DNA of 26,211 nucleotides from a virus. This document shows positions 12,755 to 22,281 of the stretch, in pieces. Location: positions 1 to 26,211 of IMG/VR virus record IMGVR_UViG_3300009164_000314; one strand, given 5' to 3'. How positions within the stretch are numbered: position 1 is the first letter of the stretch; every line of letters starts with the position of its first letter. The translations under genes and the position numbers were made by a program. The notes below the pieces were generated by a model that was not told the origin of the DNA, did not search any database, and worked only from the letters and a program-made list of their open reading frames with translations.

Positions 12755-15700
12755 TTATGCCTGAGCTTCTGTCCAAGATAAACGAGCTGAAATATCTCCA
12801 GATGTTAGTCCTAGGTTTGTTGCAACGATTGTTAAAATATCTGGACCATTTGGGAATCCTGGAGCTTTGTAGTTTCCATCTCCTGAAAGAATTGATGTTC
12901 CAAGGTCTTTAACCTTTGACAAATCAAAGCTGGTTGCTGAATAGTTTGTACCACCAGTACCGTCGGTATAGAAAGCAAATGCCTGATCTCCACCTCTAAT
13001 TGTTGTTATTGGGCTAGTTACTGTAGAACCTGTCTTTCCAGTACCATCGTGATAAATAACTTGAGCTAGTGATCCTCCAGCTACTCTAATGTTTTCCCAG
13101 TCATTTGGAAGAGTTACTCCAGTTGGGAACGATGAAGGATTATAAATACCCTGAATCAAAAATGCTCCTTGAGCAAGAATACCTAGCGAGCTAAGTGATA
13201 ACTGCATAGTATTTAATGTTTCTCTCTTGCCATAATTTCTTCCAATTCCATTATCTGCAGATGGTGCAATTCTAATTGAAAGAAGTGGTCTTGCAACCGC
13301 TGTTGTACCAAAGCTTTGAGAAACGGATCCTTGTGGAGTAACAATACTTGATGCTATTGTTGTTGCATTGGATATTGAGTATTGAATAGTATTAGATGTT
13401 ACTGCGCTTACTGTAAATGTTCCATTGAATGTTGTTTTTTCAACTGCTGTTGCAGCTGTTTGTGCTTGTGCCGTATATCCATAAACTCCAGCAAGGATAA
13501 CTTCAAATGTATTTGATGCTGGGGTTGCTGATATAGTCCTATCACCATTTAAAATAGTAGTAACTGCAGTAGATTGAATTTGACCATTTTGAAGATTTCT
13601 AGATAATGCAGTATTTGATACTGTTACAGTTTGACCTGTGTAAAGACCGTGTGCACCTTGAGTTGTAACTAATATTGTAGATGCAGAAGTTCTTTGAACG
13701 CTTGTTATTGCTGCTGAGGTATTAACTCCAGTTACAATAAGTGGGTATCCCACCTGTACTTGGTGATTTGAAGCAGTTGTTAATGTTGCAACAGATGAGG
13801 ATGCTGACTTTGAAGAAATTTTTGCAATAACTTCACCTGAACCTGCAACGTTTACGAATCTCTGCATACCAGCGGTAAAGATAAAGTTCTTATCATCATC
13901 AAACTTGCCGTCCATAATAACAGATGATCCCCAGTGTGAAATAACTGGAGCACATGTATTTGTAATTGTTTGAACAGAAACTTGTGCAATTCCAGTTCCA
14001 TTTGTAATTGTATTATCTGGAAGATATGTTGCATTATTTGATGATCCAGACAAAGTTACAGCTTGTCCTTGTAGATAAGAAGTCATCGGCTGTCTTCTAT
14101 TTATATTAACAGGGTAACCTTGTGCAATTTCATTATATGCTGTATCAGTAATTGTATAAGAACAAATTTCAAAATTACTTGTATCTTTTATTACTAAGAA
14201 TCCTGAAGTTGGCCAAAATTTAACGCTATCAACATACATAACAATCATTGATGGTGCTAATGGCGATCCAACTATTCCTGAAGATCCCGCCTTTAACTTT
14301 GTGCTAAAGAATGGTGAGTTAATTGCTTCATATCTTGCTGGAAGGTTTCCAGAACGCATGTAAGCTTCTGTATTTCTATTGTTATTAGGCATCTTGTGGC
14401 AATAAACAATATTTCCTTCTGTACCTCTAAAACCAAATCTAATAAATCCTGCACCGTACCAGGTGTAGTCAACATAGGCCATCTGCATTAATGCAGGGTC
14501 TAGTGTATATCCTGAAGGGCCTTTCCCATCAAGTCTATCTACGTTCCACTCAGTTTGAGGAACTCTAATTTCTTGAGTCAAAACATAAGAAGAGTTAGTT
14601 ACGGAATCTCCCTTATATGCTGGAGTAACCTTTAAGTTAGTATCTGATGCAATTTCAATAACACTATAATTTGCTCCCTTAATTACAATCTGGTCTCCAA
14701 CCAATAACTGCTTTCTAAATCTTGTATTTATGCCAGTAATTGTATTTGAATACTTGGTTGCAGCAATTTTACCAAATAAATCTTTCTTGGTAAATCTTCT
14801 GACGGCATAAAGATATGTCCCATCATATTCAAGGAAGAATCCGTTTTGATCATTGAACATACCAGTTCTTGTTGCGGCACCTTCCCACTTATAAACAGTA
14901 ACTGAAACATCAACTCCTCCTGGGAATTGATCTGTAGCAGTTAAGTTTTGTGTAAGTGGCATAATATACTGGAACTCATTTGTTCCTAATACATTTGTAA
15001 CTACAAACTTACCATTCCATGGGTTGTATGATCCTGCTGTAACAACTCCATCTACTTTAATTTTTGCTCCTGGTTGCATTCCATGATCTTGAAGTGTTTT
15101 TACAGTTACAACTTGATTTCCAATTAAAACTCCTGCAACAGCAATGCTATCTACGTCAAAAGTAGGTGTAAATTTTACACCAGTAGAGAATTGAATTGAT
15201 TTTCCTGATTGATATCTAAAAGCACGACGTGTTTGACGAATAACTCTTACACCACAAACATTGTCTGTTGTTGAAAGAATAACTCCTCCATCATGTGGTC
15301 TATGCTGTACATATCCGTTTGGTTTTGTATAAAGTCCTACTCCATTTGTAATAATTGGATTAGCAACTTGTGAAGTCATTTTAAATTTCATTTGGTTTGG
15401 AGATGAAACGTTAAATATTCTCCAAGAACCTTTGATTGAGCAATTTTCGTTTTGGCTTCCGATTAGAATTGGAGTTCCTGGAAGAAGTCCATGTGCTGTA
15501 CTTGTTGTAATTGTAATTGTAGACTGAGCTGCACCATCTGATTGAGCAGTCCATCCTTGAAGTCCTACTGCATCGCTTCCACCTGGGATATGTGCATTGT
15601 CATAAATTCCTCCGCCTGCTATGGATGTAAGGCTTCCATTTGAAATAGCTCCAGAAACAACTCCATTTGCTAAATATGTAAATGTAAAACCATCTGTGGA

Positions 15701-16315
15701 TACTGTTTCAACTGGGAAAGTTCCTTCAGCTAAGGGGGAAGATGTATCTTGAATTGAAATAACATCGCCTGCAACAAGATCTGTTGCTGGGCTAGAAACT
15801 ACGCAAGTTATTGTAGATCTTGGTGAAACACCATCACCAGTTACGCTTGTTACGTCAAATGAGTTTCCGCCTGTTGCTCTAGAAAAGAATGATGGATAAT
15901 TTGATGTTAAAACTAAAGCTTCCCACTTAGAGCTCTGAACACCATATTCAAAGTCTGTATCCATTAAAGATTGTGGCGGAGCAACTCTTAGTTTATTTAC
16001 TGCATCCATAAGTGGTTCTGTAAATGTTACTGTTTCTGCTGGCTCGTCAACAATAATTGCAAGTTGATCTGTAGAAGCCATGCTTGCACAGTTATATTTA
16101 AGAGTAATTATTGTTTTTGGCTCGTAGCCAAGTGTGTTGTCAATTGCAAAAGCGGTAGCGCCTAGGTTAGTATCGGAGAAATTGTAGATAACCTTGCCTT
16201 GGGTGGTATTTGTGATAAGCATCAATCTATCTTGTCTTACTATTCTTGGAATAGTAATTTGATTAGTGCCTGGATTAAATACGTAGTATGCGTGTTCTAT
16301 TTGTCTTCTTGCCAT
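12755..16315 (-). CDS. Large virion structural/tail protein, 1186 aa
   Basis: This is the largest gene of the window. Residues 1-95 are beta-rich (IEHAYYVFNPGTNQITIPRI). Residues about 103-132 contain LRVAPPQSLMDTDFEYGVQS followed by SKWEAL, and about 362-382 contain RAFRYQSGKSIQFSTGVKF. I associate both with long structural proteins of T4-like cyanophages and related marine phages. A short motif of the form T-x-HGL-x-x-G-x-x-(I/V) recurs at about 270, 409, 848 and 888 (for example HGLLPGTPILIG and HGLYTGQTVTVSN), each followed by a tail like FTVSAVTSNTIQYS, so small beta domains are repeated. The middle (YTWYGAGFIRFGFRG) and C-terminal parts are also beta-rich. It is probably a fibre or baseplate-associated protein; no enzyme motif is visible. 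AGGAG precedes the ATG. Confidence 0.75.
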   Translation of the reverse strand: MARRQIEHAYYVFNPGTNQITIPRIVRQDRLMLITNTTQGKVIYNFSDTNLGATAFAIDNTLGYEPKTIITLKYNCASMASTDQLAIIVDEPAETVTFTEPLMDAVNKLRVAPPQSLMDTDFEYGVQSSKWEALVLTSNYPSFFSRATGGNSFDVTSVTGDGVSPRSTITCVVSSPATDLVAGDVISIQDTSSPLAEGTFPVETVSTDGFTFTYLANGVVSGAISNGSLTSIAGGGIYDNAHIPGGSDAVGLQGWTAQSDGAAQSTITITTSTAHGLLPGTPILIGSQNENCSIKGSWRIFNVSSPNQMKFKMTSQVANPIITNGVGLYTKPNGYVQHRPHDGGVILSTTDNVCGVRVIRQTRRAFRYQSGKSIQFSTGVKFTPTFDVDSIAVAGVLIGNQVVTVKTLQDHGMQPGAKIKVDGVVTAGSYNPWNGKFVVTNVLGTNEFQYIMPLTQNLTATDQFPGGVDVSVTVYKWEGAATRTGMFNDQNGFFLEYDGTYLYAVRRFTKKDLFGKIAATKYSNTITGINTRFRKQLLVGDQIVIKGANYSVIEIASDTNLKVTPAYKGDSVTNSSYVLTQEIRVPQTEWNVDRLDGKGPSGYTLDPALMQMAYVDYTWYGAGFIRFGFRGTEGNIVYCHKMPNNNRNTEAYMRSGNLPARYEAINSPFFSTKLKAGSSGIVGSPLAPSMIVMYVDSVKFWPTSGFLVIKDTSNFEICSYTITDTAYNEIAQGYPVNINRRQPMTSYLQGQAVTLSGSSNNATYLPDNTITNGTGIAQVSVQTITNTCAPVISHWGSSVIMDGKFDDDKNFIFTAGMQRFVNVAGSGEVIAKISSKSASSSVATLTTASNHQVQVGYPLIVTGVNTSAAITSVQRTSASTILVTTQGAHGLYTGQTVTVSNTALSRNLQNGQIQSTAVTTILNGDRTISATPASNTFEVILAGVYGYTAQAQTAATAVEKTTFNGTFTVSAVTSNTIQYSISNATTIASSIVTPQGSVSQSFGTTAVARPLLSIRIAPSADNGIGRNYGKRETLNTMQLSLSSLGILAQGAFLIQGIYNPSSFPTGVTLPNDWENIRVAGGSLAQVIYHDGTGKTGSTVTSPITTIRGGDQAFAFYTDGTGGTNYSATSFDLSKVKDLGTSILSGDGNYKAPGFPNGPDILTIVATNLGLTSGDISARLSWTEAQA

Positions 16316-16327
16316 TTTATATTTCTC

Positions 16328-16948
16328 CTAAAATAAATAACTTGTTGCTGCAAATTTACTGTTTAGCTCGGTCTGAGTTAAAGTACTTGTATACTTTGGA
16401 TAATATAGACCTAGGTTTAGCATTGCGTCTACCCTGGCTACCGTTGTTTCACTAAGTATAGCATTAGCCAGTTCATTGCCAGAAGGACCTGTTGGACCTG
16501 TTGCTCCAGTTAATCCCTGTATTCCTTGTGAACCTCTAATATTTCCTTGTAATGTCCAAGTTGCTGATGCTGAATTATATTGAAACCAATCGCCTGTTGT
16601 TGTATTTAAATAATTATCTAAACCTAATTTACCCGCTGGGTTTGATGATGTTGGATTAGCAATTCCAGTGTAGTTATATGAACCTCTTTGTCCCGCCGTT
16701 CCTTGTGGACCCGCTGCACCTGCAGCACCTACTGGACCTTGTGTTCCTGTAGGTAAACTAAAATTTAATACTGCTGCTGAGGATGTTCCGCTATTTACAA
16801 CAGTTGGTGTTGATCCTGAAGGAAGTGTTGTAACTGTGCCAACAGAAACAGTTGCTGCGGCTCCTGGAAGTCCTTGAGGACCTTGTGCTCCTGGACGTGA
16901 TCCTGCTACTACAACCCAGGCCGTACCATTCCAACGTTTTAATGACAT
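16328..16948 (-). CDS. Collagen-like tail fibre protein, 206 aa
   Basis: Three short Gly-X-Y segments (residues 20-31, 68-89 and 139-157; for example GTQGPVGAAGAAGPQGTAGQ and GLTGATGPTGPSG) are separated by a VSVGTVTTLPSGSTPTVVNS / AAVLNFSLPTG beta module and by a KLGLDNYLNTTTGDWFQYNS segment, both standard in phage fibres. The N-terminus (MSLKRWNGTAWVVVAG) is a usual attachment motif; the C-terminus is helical (ARVDAMLNLG). It probably forms a trimer through the collagen triplets. Proline is mostly in the X position, with one GLP. It has its own TATAAT box and a GGAGG ribosome site nine bases before the ATG, and it begins a short transcription group with the 1186-aa gene. Confidence 0.85.
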   Translation of the reverse strand: MSLKRWNGTAWVVVAGSRPGAQGPQGLPGAAATVSVGTVTTLPSGSTPTVVNSGTSSAAVLNFSLPTGTQGPVGAAGAAGPQGTAGQRGSYNYTGIANPTSSNPAGKLGLDNYLNTTTGDWFQYNSASATWTLQGNIRGSQGIQGLTGATGPTGPSGNELANAILSETTVARVDAMLNLGLYYPKYTSTLTQTELNSKFAATSYLF

Positions 16949-18799: not shown

Positions 18800-19450
18800 C
18801 TATAGGACTTTAGATACCTGTCCTTGATATCTACTATGATCTTTATGGTTTCTGTCGTTATATGAAAACATTGTTACCGCAGAATACTTTATTCCCGACT
18901 TTACTGGCAGTGCCGCATGTGAAAAAAGATAGCTCGACGGGAACAACACAATGTCTCCGTATTGAGGAACATAGGTGTAGTCAAAATGAGGAAAATACAG
19001 CTCTCCTCCTTCATAGTCGCTATTTAAATACATAACCGTAGAAACGTCACAAGAATAGCTTGGTCCGCTATCTGGATGTGTTTTAAAATGCTGCCCTTCT
19101 CCGTAACGAACAAAATTAATTGCTTCCATGTAGTGTAGGGTGTTAATATTATATTCTTTTGTATAGTCGTCTAGGCACTCTTTAAGCTTTTTGGTTATTT
19201 GATCATGTATTGATATGACTTCGTCTGAAAGATCATTTCCTGGCCTTAAAGAATCTCTTCTAATTTTAAAATCAACACAATCTCTATAATCTAATTTTTC
19301 TACATTATCTCCGACTTTAGCAATAGACCACTTAAACATTGAGCTTTTTTCTGAACTCAAAACGTTTTCCAGTCTTTCTGGGATATTCATTGCCTCTGGC
19401 AAAGCGTTTCTATATATTTTTATTCCTACTGTGGGAATGTCAATTATCAT
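18800..19450 (-). CDS. 2OG-Fe(II) oxygenase, prolyl 4-hydroxylase-like, 216 aa
   Basis: I place the start at 19450 (MIIDIPTVGI), where AAGGAG stands five bases upstream; the longer frame to 19486 has no such site and would overlap the upstream gene. The C-terminal half is a double-stranded beta helix with all expected residues in this numbering: HxD at His125/Asp127 (GQHFKTHPDSG), distal His178 (YLFSHAALPV) and Lys188 (SGIKYSAV) to bind 2-oxoglutarate. YLNSDYEGGELYFP and GDIVLFPSSY are classic P4H-family segments. It should be an active dioxygenase hydroxylating a protein or small molecule; the substrate is unknown. The neighbours are two similar-fold but ligand-poor proteins, a GNAT-like protein and fibre genes, so a virion protein substrate is plausible. 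Such oxygenases are frequent in cyanophages and other aquatic phages. Confidence 0.85.
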   Translation of the reverse strand: MIIDIPTVGIKIYRNALPEAMNIPERLENVLSSEKSSMFKWSIAKVGDNVEKLDYRDCVDFKIRRDSLRPGNDLSDEVISIHDQITKKLKECLDDYTKEYNINTLHYMEAINFVRYGEGQHFKTHPDSGPSYSCDVSTVMYLNSDYEGGELYFPHFDYTYVPQYGDIVLFPSSYLFSHAALPVKSGIKYSAVTMFSYNDRNHKDHSRYQGQVSKVL

Positions 19451-19467
19451 AATTTCTCCTTGTTCTA

Positions 19468-20058
19468 CTATATTAAAGGCATCCACTTTTGTGAATACTG
19501 ATTTTTTATTTCTGATAATGGGCTTACGTAAAACACTATTGATTTAAATTTATTGTAATAAACAATTTTATTTCCTGCCTCTGAAACTATAATGTCTCCA
19601 GGACCTATCTCAAACTCCATGTCGTTAATTAAAACTTTTGATTTTTGTAAATCTAGGGAAATTATTCCAAACATTGAGGGCCTTGATGTTCCTCCAGCAT
19701 CATACCAGAAAGAAGGGTCTTGGTCTTCAACCAATGAGGAATAAATAAAATATTTATTTTTTGAATAACTAAACTCATGTTCTTTACAAACATTTTTTAT
19801 TAAAGAAACAATCTTCTGAAAAAGAAAATACATCTGCTCGTCATGCATAAAAAATGGATTATAACTATTTTTATTATATACATTAACAATTTTTTCCTCA
19901 GAATTGGGAAAGTTATAAATTTTTTCAGATTTATTTAATTCATTTATTATTTTTTCATAAAGTCCCGTTGTGTCAAAGTTATCTTTAGATAACATTGTTT
20001 TTCTTTTTTCTCTATAGATAACATTTTCGTTTTTATTTTGAGTATACTCGTTAATCAT
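19468..20058 (-). CDS. Cupin/2OG-fold-like protein without evident metal ligands, 196 aa
   Basis: The start at 20058 (MINEYTQNKN) is preferred over the longer frame from 20088, because GAGG stands six bases upstream. The gene overlaps the preceding stop by eight bases. The N-terminal 100 residues are helical and Lys/Asn-rich. Residues 105-180 form a beta-helix-like series: YSSLVEDQDPSFWYDAGGTS, MFGIISLDL, VLINDMEFEIGPGDIIVSEA, SIVFYVSP. The order is that of a cupin or 2OG oxygenase core, but I see no HxD pair and no distal His at the expected points. I therefore call it a fold relative and not an enzyme. It could be a partner of the oxygenase next door, or it could act on its own without metal. 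AT content is higher here than in the fibre genes. Confidence 0.65.
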   Translation of the reverse strand: MINEYTQNKNENVIYREKRKTMLSKDNFDTTGLYEKIINELNKSEKIYNFPNSEEKIVNVYNKNSYNPFFMHDEQMYFLFQKIVSLIKNVCKEHEFSYSKNKYFIYSSLVEDQDPSFWYDAGGTSRPSMFGIISLDLQKSKVLINDMEFEIGPGDIIVSEAGNKIVYYNKFKSIVFYVSPLSEIKNQYSQKWMPLI

Positions 20059-20581
20059 TTTTAACCTCAACATAAGAAACTCCAACAATTAATTCTCCAG
20101 AAGATACTTCAGAAATTCTATAAGCATACTCTTCTAAAGATGGGAAAATTATAAGATTTCCTTTCAATAAAGGAATAGAAAGATTTTTATTTAAAAAGGT
20201 AATATTTGAACCAGGGTGGTTATCATTTACAACATAAATAATTGATAGAGTATCTCTTAGCCCTGGATTAAGAAATTCTTGTGCGTATGATGTTTCTGGG
20301 GATATTTTTAAAAACACATTTTCAATTGGGAAAACAAAAGAAAGAGACTTGTCATGAAGATATGAGTTTATTTCAGAAATAAAGCTAACGTATAATCTTC
20401 TGTTTTCTAAATTTAAATTTCTTAGATTTGTTGTTTTAATCACGCCTTCTTTAAAACCATTTACTCTGTCTATCCATGAGATCTCTTCAAAGCTTGAAAG
20501 CATTTGCTGAAGTGCTAAATCATTTATATATGAAAAATCATAAAGATTTATTTCATGTTGCGAAAATATTTTATTAACCAT
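20051..20581 (-). CDS. Degenerate 2OG oxygenase-like protein, 176 aa
   Basis: The start is taken at 20581 (MVNKIFSQHE) because AGGAGG stands five bases upstream. The longer frame to 20650 would overlap the upstream gene by 77 bases. The C-terminal half follows the P4H-family pattern: ENVFLKISPETSYAQEF, then DTLSIIYVVNDNHPGSNITF, LLKGNLIIFPSLEEYAYRIS, GELIVGVSY. Where the iron ligands should be there is no HxD (near AQEFLNPG), and the distal His is replaced (EYAYR). It therefore looks like an inactive relative of the intact enzyme at 18800-19450. It could be a pseudoenzyme scaffold, or the family could have diverged to a non-catalytic role. It overlaps both neighbours by eight bases, so it is probably co-translated with them. 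Confidence 0.65.
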   Translation of the reverse strand: MVNKIFSQHEINLYDFSYINDLALQQMLSSFEEISWIDRVNGFKEGVIKTTNLRNLNLENRRLYVSFISEINSYLHDKSLSFVFPIENVFLKISPETSYAQEFLNPGLRDTLSIIYVVNDNHPGSNITFLNKNLSIPLLKGNLIIFPSLEEYAYRISEVSSGELIVGVSYVEVKND

Positions 20582-21122
20582 TTTTTCCTCCTGCTCTGTG
20601 CCCGTGCCAAATATTTGGATAAACGGGATCCCTTGGTGGATTGATATCAAACAAAGATATAGCAGATCTTTGCTCTACTGGAATTTCTTTTATTTCTTCA
20701 TTACACATAGCTTTTGCTTTACATGTAGCTGATTCAGTTTGCATGCTTCTATCTAAGGGCACATCGCAAAGTGCATCTAAATACTCATAAAATATTGTTC
20801 TTCCAATTAAGCCAAATGCTGGAAGAAGTCCCTTCTTTCTATATTTTGGCTGAATATACACTCTTTCATTCATTAAGTTTTTATTAACTGTTGCGTATAA
20901 ATCTGGATATTCTGTTGGCAAAAAATCTGAGACAACAACTGTATTTTCTGGATGAGTATTATTAAAATAAACACAAATTACATACTTTACTTGCGCTAGG
21001 TTATCTAATTTTGTTACATGTATCCAGGAGCCTTTTAGCTCTTCTGGCATTGAAGAAAATATTGGAACAGAATACTCCCCAACTGGCTTCATGCCAATAA
21101 CATTATATTGCGCTTGAGTCAT
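20574..21122 (-). CDS. GNAT-like N-acetyltransferase-related protein, 182 aa
   Basis: The centre (residues 86-115, ERVYIQPKYRKKGLLPAFGL then IGRTIFYEYL) resembles GNAT motif A, the strand-turn-helix that binds acetyl-CoA pyrophosphate. Here RKKGLL stands in place of the ideal R-x-x-G-x-G/A. A strand before it (VKYVICVYFNN) suits motif D. The C-terminal 60 residues are polar with two Cys and end in HGHRAGGKNG, which is not typical of GNATs. It could be an acetyltransferase, but with only motif A to go on I give moderate weight. The ATG at 21122 is 20 bases inside the end of the Hint gene; ATG at 21092 is a weaker alternative without a ribosome site. Confidence 0.55.
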   Translation of the reverse strand: MTQAQYNVIGMKPVGEYSVPIFSSMPEELKGSWIHVTKLDNLAQVKYVICVYFNNTHPENTVVVSDFLPTEYPDLYATVNKNLMNERVYIQPKYRKKGLLPAFGLIGRTIFYEYLDALCDVPLDRSMQTESATCKAKAMCNEEIKEIPVEQRSAISLFDINPPRDPVYPNIWHGHRAGGKNG

Positions 21123-22281
21123 GGGTTAGCATCCTTTCAGTAAAGAACATATCGTATGGTTCGCAGTTTATGGAAATAATATCGTGTGGCACCTGAACTA
21201 TTTCATACAAATAGATAGGTTCCCAACTGCTGGTGTCATATGAGTATACCAAATCAGTTTCTTTAACTACATTTACGGAAGTCTCAAATTTAGAAATTCC
21301 GTTTCTTTTAATTAAAATATAGTGATATTGAGAAAATATATCTTCATTAATTACGACTGCGTATGCAGATTGTGTTTTATATATGTTAGCTATTGTTGTA
21401 ATTTCTGGAATAATATTAGGATTGCTATCTGACCAAGCAATAGCTTGAGCCGTTACACCTTCTGCGCTTTCGTATGGGAATCCTTCAATATTTACAGATA
21501 AAAGAGTATCACCTACTTGCAAGTCTCCTGCTTTTACAAGTCCGTCTGTTGTTCTAACTAAAGTCGTAATTCCAACACTTTTACTAAATCCAAAATCAAA
21601 TAAAGCGCTTAGGTCTAGGTTTGTTAAATCTCCTGAACCTCCAAAAAGTGGTGTATCAAATGCTGGTTCGTTAAAAGCTGGTTGAAATCCTGGGTTAAAT
21701 CCTGGGCTAAATCCTGGGCTAAATCCTGGGCTAAATCCTGGGTTTGAATTATAAGATATATTAAATGCTGAAATAAGAGGAACTCTTCCATTATAAATTT
21801 GAATATTTCTGCTGCCTTCTCCACTCAAAGAAAATGTTATTTGATTTGAACTTGCACTCCAGCTTCCATATGCAATGTTTGTTCCATCTACAGCAATATT
21901 TGTAGGAAAGGTAACAAAACTTCCATTAATTGTTACAGTAGATCCGTTCCAACTTGAAGAAGATACTGATGAATCTTGTGGAGGGTCGGGAACATAAAAT
22001 CCTGGGTTAAATCCTGGATTAAAGTTAGGTGGTGCAACATAATTATAATAAGTAAAAGGAACTTGAGACCCTATTAAAACTGTAGTGCCTGCTGGTATTC
22101 CTTGATCAACTATATTTAAATTTATTCCAATGTTACTTGTAGTGGAAGGGGTTTCTATCCAAGAAAGACCAACTGCTGATAGAACTGATTGAGCTTGACT
22201 TTGAGTTAATCCAGATAGGTTAGGAACATTTACTCTTACAACACCTAGTAAGCTAAAAAAATTTTTCTTGGCTCTTGCCAT
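21103..22281 (-). CDS. PASTA / beta-sandwich / PGF-repeat / Hint multidomain protein, 392 aa
   Basis: Residues 19-80 form a PASTA domain (VPNLSGLTQSQAQSVLSAVG, then VDQGIPAGTTVLIGSQV). Residues about 105-178 are an Ig/IPT-like beta domain (TVTINGSFVTFPTNIAVDGT). Proline-rich (N/S)PGF repeats lie at 86-95 and 179-200 and flank it. Residues 232-388 are a Hint (intein/hedgehog-type) domain: TTDGLVKAGDLQVGDTLLSV at the start, YHYILIKRNG with His320, and CEPYDMFFTERMLTHD at the end. The first catalytic position (five residues before Thr240) is Ser235, not Cys, and the usual final His-Asn is His387-Asp388, followed by only four residues. Self-cleavage may therefore be altered or lost. PASTA domains typically bind peptidoglycan, so it could be a cell-wall-binding virion protein. 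It is followed by the GNAT-like and oxygenase genes. Confidence 0.75.
   Translation of the reverse strand: MARAKKNFFSLLGVVRVNVPNLSGLTQSQAQSVLSAVGLSWIETPSTTSNIGINLNIVDQGIPAGTTVLIGSQVPFTYYNYVAPPNFNPGFNPGFYVPDPPQDSSVSSSSWNGSTVTINGSFVTFPTNIAVDGTNIAYGSWSASSNQITFSLSGEGSRNIQIYNGRVPLISAFNISYNSNPGFSPGFSPGFSPGFNPGFQPAFNEPAFDTPLFGGSGDLTNLDLSALFDFGFSKSVGITTLVRTTDGLVKAGDLQVGDTLLSVNIEGFPYESAEGVTAQAIAWSDSNPNIIPEITTIANIYKTQSAYAVVINEDIFSQYHYILIKRNGISKFETSVNVVKETDLVYSYDTSSWEPIYLYEIVQVPHDIISINCEPYDMFFTERMLTHDSSAI
21685..21744 (-). repeat. Five 12-bp tandem repeats encoding (S/N)PGF
   Basis: Five perfect or nearly perfect 12-base units (plus-strand consensus AAATCCTGGGCT) encode the tetrapeptide repeat in the Hint protein; the three middle units are identical. 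Two more units lie at 21997-22020, before the beta domain. The in-frame length suggests slippage could vary copy number. Confidence 0.9.

Follow-up and report, generated by a model that had tools for sequence, protein, structure and literature searches.

X-Pro-Gly is the classical motif of prolyl 4-hydroxylases (PMC8968730). Viral genes for related enzymes are known: T4-like cyanophages and pelagiphages carry several 2-oxoglutarate (2OG)-Fe(II) oxygenases per genome (phrog_61, phrog_81, phrog_2297, phrog_3531; PMC3037559, PMC9599517), and mimivirus, in the account cited within PMC8968730, encodes a collagen repeat protein together with the enzyme that hydroxylates it. Here we analysed a stretch of viral DNA of 26,211 nucleotides (IMG/VR record IMGVR_UViG_3300009164_000314, positions 1 to 26,211), called the window below. 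It contains a block of five genes, E-D-C-B-A, on the minus strand at 18800-22281, in the tail-fibre region of a freshwater phage that is represented solely in metagenomes. We consider it reasonably probable, judging from sequence comparisons and gene linkage, that this block is a phage prolyl-hydroxylation cassette, in which the oxygenase A would act on the proline repeats of protein E, with B, C and D as associated proteins.

The block shares features with each of these systems. Like the prolyl 4-hydroxylases of known structure (3itq, 5hv0) and the collagen prolyl 4-hydroxylases, A has their fold, an H-D-H metal triad and a lysine as 2OG binder, and X-Pro-Gly motifs occur in the neighbouring protein E. 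Unlike them, A shows low similarity to these enzymes (E ~5e-5) and belongs to a family found only in viruses in our searches, and its proposed target would be a Pro-Phe repeat stalk and not a triple helix. The oxygenases of cyanophages and pelagiphages are members of the same superfamily, and their fused two-domain form resembles a joining of A or C to C2, an additional gene found in relatives of the window. However, the annotated relatives that we inspected do not lie in a fibre operon beside a Pro-repeat/Hint protein. With mimivirus the block would have in common that one virus encodes a repeat protein and its modifying enzyme, whereas the mimivirus enzyme, in the same cited account, is a lysyl hydroxylase/glycosyltransferase whose target is Gly-X-Y collagen, in a virus of amoebae. 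We found no described phage pair of a prolyl hydroxylase and a repeat protein in the open-licence literature searched.

The gene block and its oxygenase

The five genes are the following.

21103..22281, minus strand: gene E, 392 residues, with a PASTA domain, an X-Pro-Gly-Phe linker and a C-terminal Hint-like domain; proposed substrate
20574..21122, minus strand: gene D, 182 residues, no family match; its start overlaps the stop of E
20051..20581, minus strand: gene C, 176 residues, pseudo-2OG oxygenase with its ligands lost; its start overlaps the stop of D
19468..20058, minus strand: gene B, 196 residues, predicted double-stranded beta-helix pseudo-oxygenase (AlphaFold, Foldseek, alignments); its start overlaps the stop of C
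18800..19450, minus strand: gene A, 216 residues, intact 2OG-Fe(II) oxygenase of the prolyl 4-hydroxylase type

Gene starts were set by ribosome-binding sites, stop/start overlaps and orthologue alignments; the starts given by a plain listing of open reading frames (ORFs) were too long for three of the five genes. The E/D, D/C and C/B overlaps measure 8-20 bases, and a gap of 17 bases separates B from A, which has its own ribosome-binding site, AAGGAG. An earlier note, made from the sequence alone, had described near-continuous overlapping genes behind a Hint/PGF gene, and its position, strand and overlaps are all borne out. It had also stated that, among three beta-helix proteins, only the last keeps HxD...H...K. 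This is correct: A has H125, D127, H178 and K188, and B and C lack the motif.

A matches PF13640 (2OG-FeII_Oxy_3) above the cut-off (E=8.5e-14) and the 2OG families of PHROG with E values down to 8e-27. The metal triad H125, D127 and H178 is complete and followed by K188, and this H-D-H-K signature is present in 90/90 distinct A-family sequences aligned. In collagen-type prolyl 4-hydroxylases a lysine is the 2OG binder. The sole relatives of A found among solved structures are prolyl hydroxylases (3itq, 5hv0, 8k0e and 6tp5, E 5e-5 to 2e-4), which include prolyl 4-hydroxylases, one prolyl 3-hydroxylase and a transmembrane prolyl 4-hydroxylase. The ratio of nonsynonymous to synonymous substitution rates (dN/dS) of A is ~0.05. 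A scan of the viral contigs of IMG/VR with A gave 514 relatives, of which the best 80 were retained, while no relative was found in the bacterial genomes searched; in these searches the family of A is confined to viruses. By tblastn, 211 of 50,697 isolated phage records matched A, a figure that serves as a rough background only, as it comes from a search of other sensitivity and from other habitats.

The putative substrate, E, contains these features.

22054..22233, minus strand: PASTA domain, residues 17-76 (PF03793, E=6.7e-7; PASTA matches in PDB)
21997..22026, minus strand: first X-Pro-Gly-Phe stretch, NFNPGFNPGF
21643..21744, minus strand: second repeat stretch, NPGF SPGF SPGF SPGF NPGF QPAF EPAF TPLF
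21106..21579, minus strand: Hint-like domain, residues 234-392, with Ser235 at the nucleophile position, an S-Q-Y-H block and a C-terminal H-D-S

Pro-Gly occurs 7 times in E against 2.2 expected from composition, and X-Pro-Gly repeats are found in the E protein of every close relative, at ~5-10 per protein. In an alignment of 10 orthologues the repeats differ in number and kind, and the flanking domains are constant. By profile comparison the Hint-like domain matches a bacterial intein-like domain, though only weakly. Like Hint and bacterial intein-like domains, it has a T/SxxH block and a C-terminal histidine; it differs from them in having Ser in place of the first-position Cys and Asp in place of the terminal Asn. 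Ser235, S-Q-Y-H and H-D-S hold in the clade I orthologues and in nearly all distant ones.

The relatives of the window in IMG/VR carry E-D-C-B-A in the same order (L numbers below are our own handles). Within the block, the closest relatives have no recognised intact oxygenase besides A. The sister lineages L038, L039, L105 and L147 have one extra gene, C2, with an apparently intact HxD...H...K. C2 lies between C and B (L038:5459-6004, L039:5459-6004; also in L105, L147 and L108-L117) and is related to a fused cyanophage protein, namely to its N-terminal half. Lineages further removed are arranged as Hint-D-C-C2-B-A' in L108-L117 and Hint-oxygenase-D-B-A in L114. The order E-D-C-(C2)-B-A, present in all close relatives and many distant ones, is beyond chance, and dN/dS across the genes of the block is 0.05-0.36. 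Isolated phages gave no match to the region in a nucleotide search, nor to B, D or E by tblastn.

Linkage of the oxygenase family to proline-aromatic repeat proteins

We name the repeats of E as the candidate substrate of A because the A family is genetically linked to Pro-aromatic repeat proteins. For a forward count we took, from the best 80 of the 514 relatives, the distinct A sequences that had 3 kb or more of DNA upstream. An ORF with Pro-aromatic tetrapeptide repeats lies 1-5 kb upstream of A in 28 of these 29 members, and the lone exception, L155, has a protein of that kind too, with a single collapsed copy (PPYFPPAF). Three kinds of repeat are found upstream of A. NPGF repeats characterise the window clade, (FPPP)n occurs in PASTA or Hint-like proteins (L154, L158, L165-L172), and (FPPF/FPPY)n in small or fibronectin-like proteins (L160-L164, L174, L184, L189-L206). 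Taken together, the repeat proteins carry PASTA, fibronectin-III-like and Hint-like domains, and some of them match phage tail families. As a control, the same repeat test was applied to 250 kb of cyanophage, Streptomyces phage and window-clade DNA, where none of 1,227 ORFs was positive; 121 kb around Hint loci without A also gave none. For the reverse count, IMG/VR loci were collected with the DNA pattern FPPxFPPxFPP as the sole criterion, and those with 4 kb or more of DNA downstream were counted. Among the matches listed, 2OG genes are present at 23 of 30 repeat loci and an A-family gene at 20 of 30. The proposal of the earlier note that the tail-fibre region holds a dedicated modification cassette is well supported.

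According to this reading, A would be a peptidyl-prolyl hydroxylase using 2OG, Fe(II) and O2, and its targets would be prolines in the X-Pro-Gly-Phe repeat linker of E. E, with its PASTA and Hint-like domains, may be a stalk or decoration protein belonging to the tail-fibre region, and hydroxylation could stiffen or mark it, as in collagen and in the hydroxyproline-rich proteins of plants. The overlaps among E, D, C and B would favour their joint production. The catalytically dead oxygenase-fold proteins B and C probably bind, present or chaperone the Pro-rich chain or the Hint protein, with D as a putative co-conserved partner. Once modified, the stalk may be cut or ligated by the Hint-like domain. 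The window clade has A as its sole recognised intact oxygenase and E as its sole Pro-aromatic repeat protein, and so offers the simplest version of a theme that is more complex elsewhere.

Several observations weigh against this assignment. Genetic linkage alone does not establish an enzyme-substrate pair, and the phages and loci counted are related, so that the linkage counts are not independent events. Seven of the 30 repeat loci have no nearby 2OG gene. Inside the loci the density of 2OG genes does not drop with distance from the repeat, because the arrays extend over many kilobases, and no support is gained from this comparison. In other phages A is held in arrays of up to ~11 oxygenases, and the enzyme acting on the repeats is therefore not singled out there. 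The window itself has only 7 Pro-Gly repeats. Finally, L118-L126 keep Hint-D-B and a C2-like gene whose ligands are lost, with no recognised intact oxygenase, and L107 has a Pro-rich E and Hint-D-B with no recognised oxygenase in the DNA examined.

Why marine and freshwater phages have several 2OG oxygenase genes in each genome has been unexplained so far, the published guesses being DNA repair and 2OG balance. The linkage described here gives one large oxygenase family a concrete candidate substrate. If the proposal is true, phages make hydroxyproline-rich stalks, a modification usually tied to collagen and plant cell walls, with catalytically dead copies of the enzyme alongside. A wider generalisation can be offered only tentatively, as a possibility that we hold to be rather doubtful: many uncultivated aquatic phages might have a dedicated hydroxyproline system. 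It would consist of a stalk with PASTA or fibronectin-like domains and long Pro-aromatic repeats, often with an autoprocessing Hint-like domain, its own enzyme of the prolyl 4-hydroxylase type, and dead oxygenase-fold partners that would hold the repeats; the Hint-like domain would afterwards release or attach the matured stalk. That would amount to a phage appendage hardened after translation, for which the literature searched offered no counterpart.

In L174, L237, L250, L262 and others we also observed arrays in which ~10 kb of DNA holds 8 to 11 oxygenase-like genes, most of them with intact active sites, beside Pro-Phe repeat proteins.

Proteins B, C and D

Profile-profile comparison, made with close orthologues only, gave no signal between A and B and a weak one between A and C. 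We replaced it by placing B through its structure and C through its cyanophage homologues. C has active phage 2OG enzymes among its homologues: it matches the S-H9-1 oxygenase at 5e-9 and the C-terminal half of the ACG-2014f fusion protein at 1e-6, and 9 of 11 orthologues match phrog_3531 (E=3.8e-5). All its metal and 2OG ligands are gone, and the distal His is Tyr in close orthologues. For B, no convincing sequence relative was found outside the cassette. Its AlphaFold model (predicted local distance difference test, pLDDT, 78.7; predicted template-modelling score, pTM, 0.76) was compared by Foldseek. The best match was a phage protein of the viral library, with a template-modelling (TM) score of 0.68, and the PDB matches were cupin and 2OG beta-helix proteins with low TM scores. 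As modelled, B has a double-stranded beta-helix fold. Its HxD position is occupied by W-Y-D; the window clade has lost both histidines, and most orthologues lack a distal one.

D had been called GNAT-like in the earlier note. No GNAT family profile matched any of the 18 orthologues scanned, and the acetyl-CoA loop R/Q-x-x-G-x-G/A is not kept, reading RKKGLL in the window and RPSHVW, with the glycine lost, in L108/L117. The AlphaFold model of D was unusable (pLDDT 37). The GNAT identity is therefore unsupported, and acetylation, suggested with it as a +42 Da shift, finds no support. D is conserved beside the Hint gene in the lineages surveyed. A separate observation concerns its recent history: D (20574-21122) has 96-97% identity to L002/L003 (synonymous divergence, dS, ~0.16) versus 66% to others (dS ~0.9-1.3). 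Being near-identical to some relatives and far from others, D appears to have been recently exchanged.

The arrangements surveyed make Hint, D and B the constant core, from which oxygenases come and go. Since Hint-D-B is kept where no intact oxygenase is recognised, the tie of B and D to the Hint protein is no weaker than their tie to A, and they cannot be partners of A only. It is thus quite possible, at somewhat less than even chance, that B, C and D have a structural or assembly role towards the Hint protein, as its chaperones or caps, and work independently of A; the beta-helix fold would then have been taken over purely for binding. Such a role is compatible with prolyl hydroxylation by A. 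It would suit L118-L126, where even the C2-like gene is ligand-less, and it would suit B, which retains the invariant D of W-Y-D and an E-A-G motif without metal ligands. On the other hand, the joint gene order is fixed wherever A is present, degenerate oxygenases adjoin A in independent arrays too (N-D-H-R in L154, E-D-H-R in L165), and a cyanophage protein fuses C2-like and A/C-like domains; these points argue for an association with A. The earlier picture of one active enzyme with two pseudoenzyme partners is supported in part: the pseudoenzymes stand, as real and conserved proteins, but the C2 and the Hint-D-B lineages speak against a simple partnership with A.

As a further observation on the Hint-like domain, L118-L127 encode large cysteine-rich proteins (~740-780 residues) that end in the Hint-like domain of E; most are followed by D and B, with no recognised active oxygenase.

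Other targets of A and phage context

The cassette reading, with E as the substrate, has to be weighed against other targets of A. A could hydroxylate another virion protein of the operon, such as a collagen-like protein or a fibre, the link to repeats reflecting a shared host-recognition module only. The window does encode a collagen-like protein ~1.9 kb from A (16328-16948; PF01391, E=5e-6, just under the curated cut-off), which may be a second target, and GPT-repeat proteins stand beside some Pro-Phe arrays (L160, L188). However, the neighbour common to the lineages is the Pro-aromatic repeat protein (28/29) and not a collagen-like one, and the two Pro-Gly of the collagen-like protein in the window equal chance expectation. 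We therefore regard this alternative as unlikely. Slightly more unlikely still is an action of A on DNA, on RNA, on a host protein or on a small molecule, its place in the fibre region being due to chance or to hitch-hiking as an auxiliary gene. Roles in DNA repair or 2OG balance have been proposed for cyanophage 2OG oxygenases (PMC3037559), and helicase or metabolic genes lie near the annotated relatives that we inspected. Against all these targets stand the linkage to repeat proteins, the overlapping arrangement with the gene of a tail-type protein and the solved relatives, which are prolyl hydroxylases. That B and C are decaying, functionless remnants of duplicated oxygenases, as their missing catalytic residues could suggest, is very improbable and was discarded, since their dN/dS of 0.14-0.22 indicates purifying selection, their frames are intact and their motifs are conserved across distant phages.

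Two observations concern the wider phage context. In cyanophage records L074-L079, 2OG-fold proteins are labelled 'ferrochelatase' or 'DNA endonuclease V', and phrog_3531, phrog_2297 and phrog_274 match A or C; these labels look wrong. Elsewhere in the window, at 12755-16315, lies a virion structural protein ~39% identical to those of T4-like cyanophages, while a relative (L081:13604-14653) has a major capsid protein 58% identical to those of Streptomyces phages. A cyanophage-like structural protein in a clade with a Streptomyces-phage-like capsid points to exchange of tail regions between unrelated phages.

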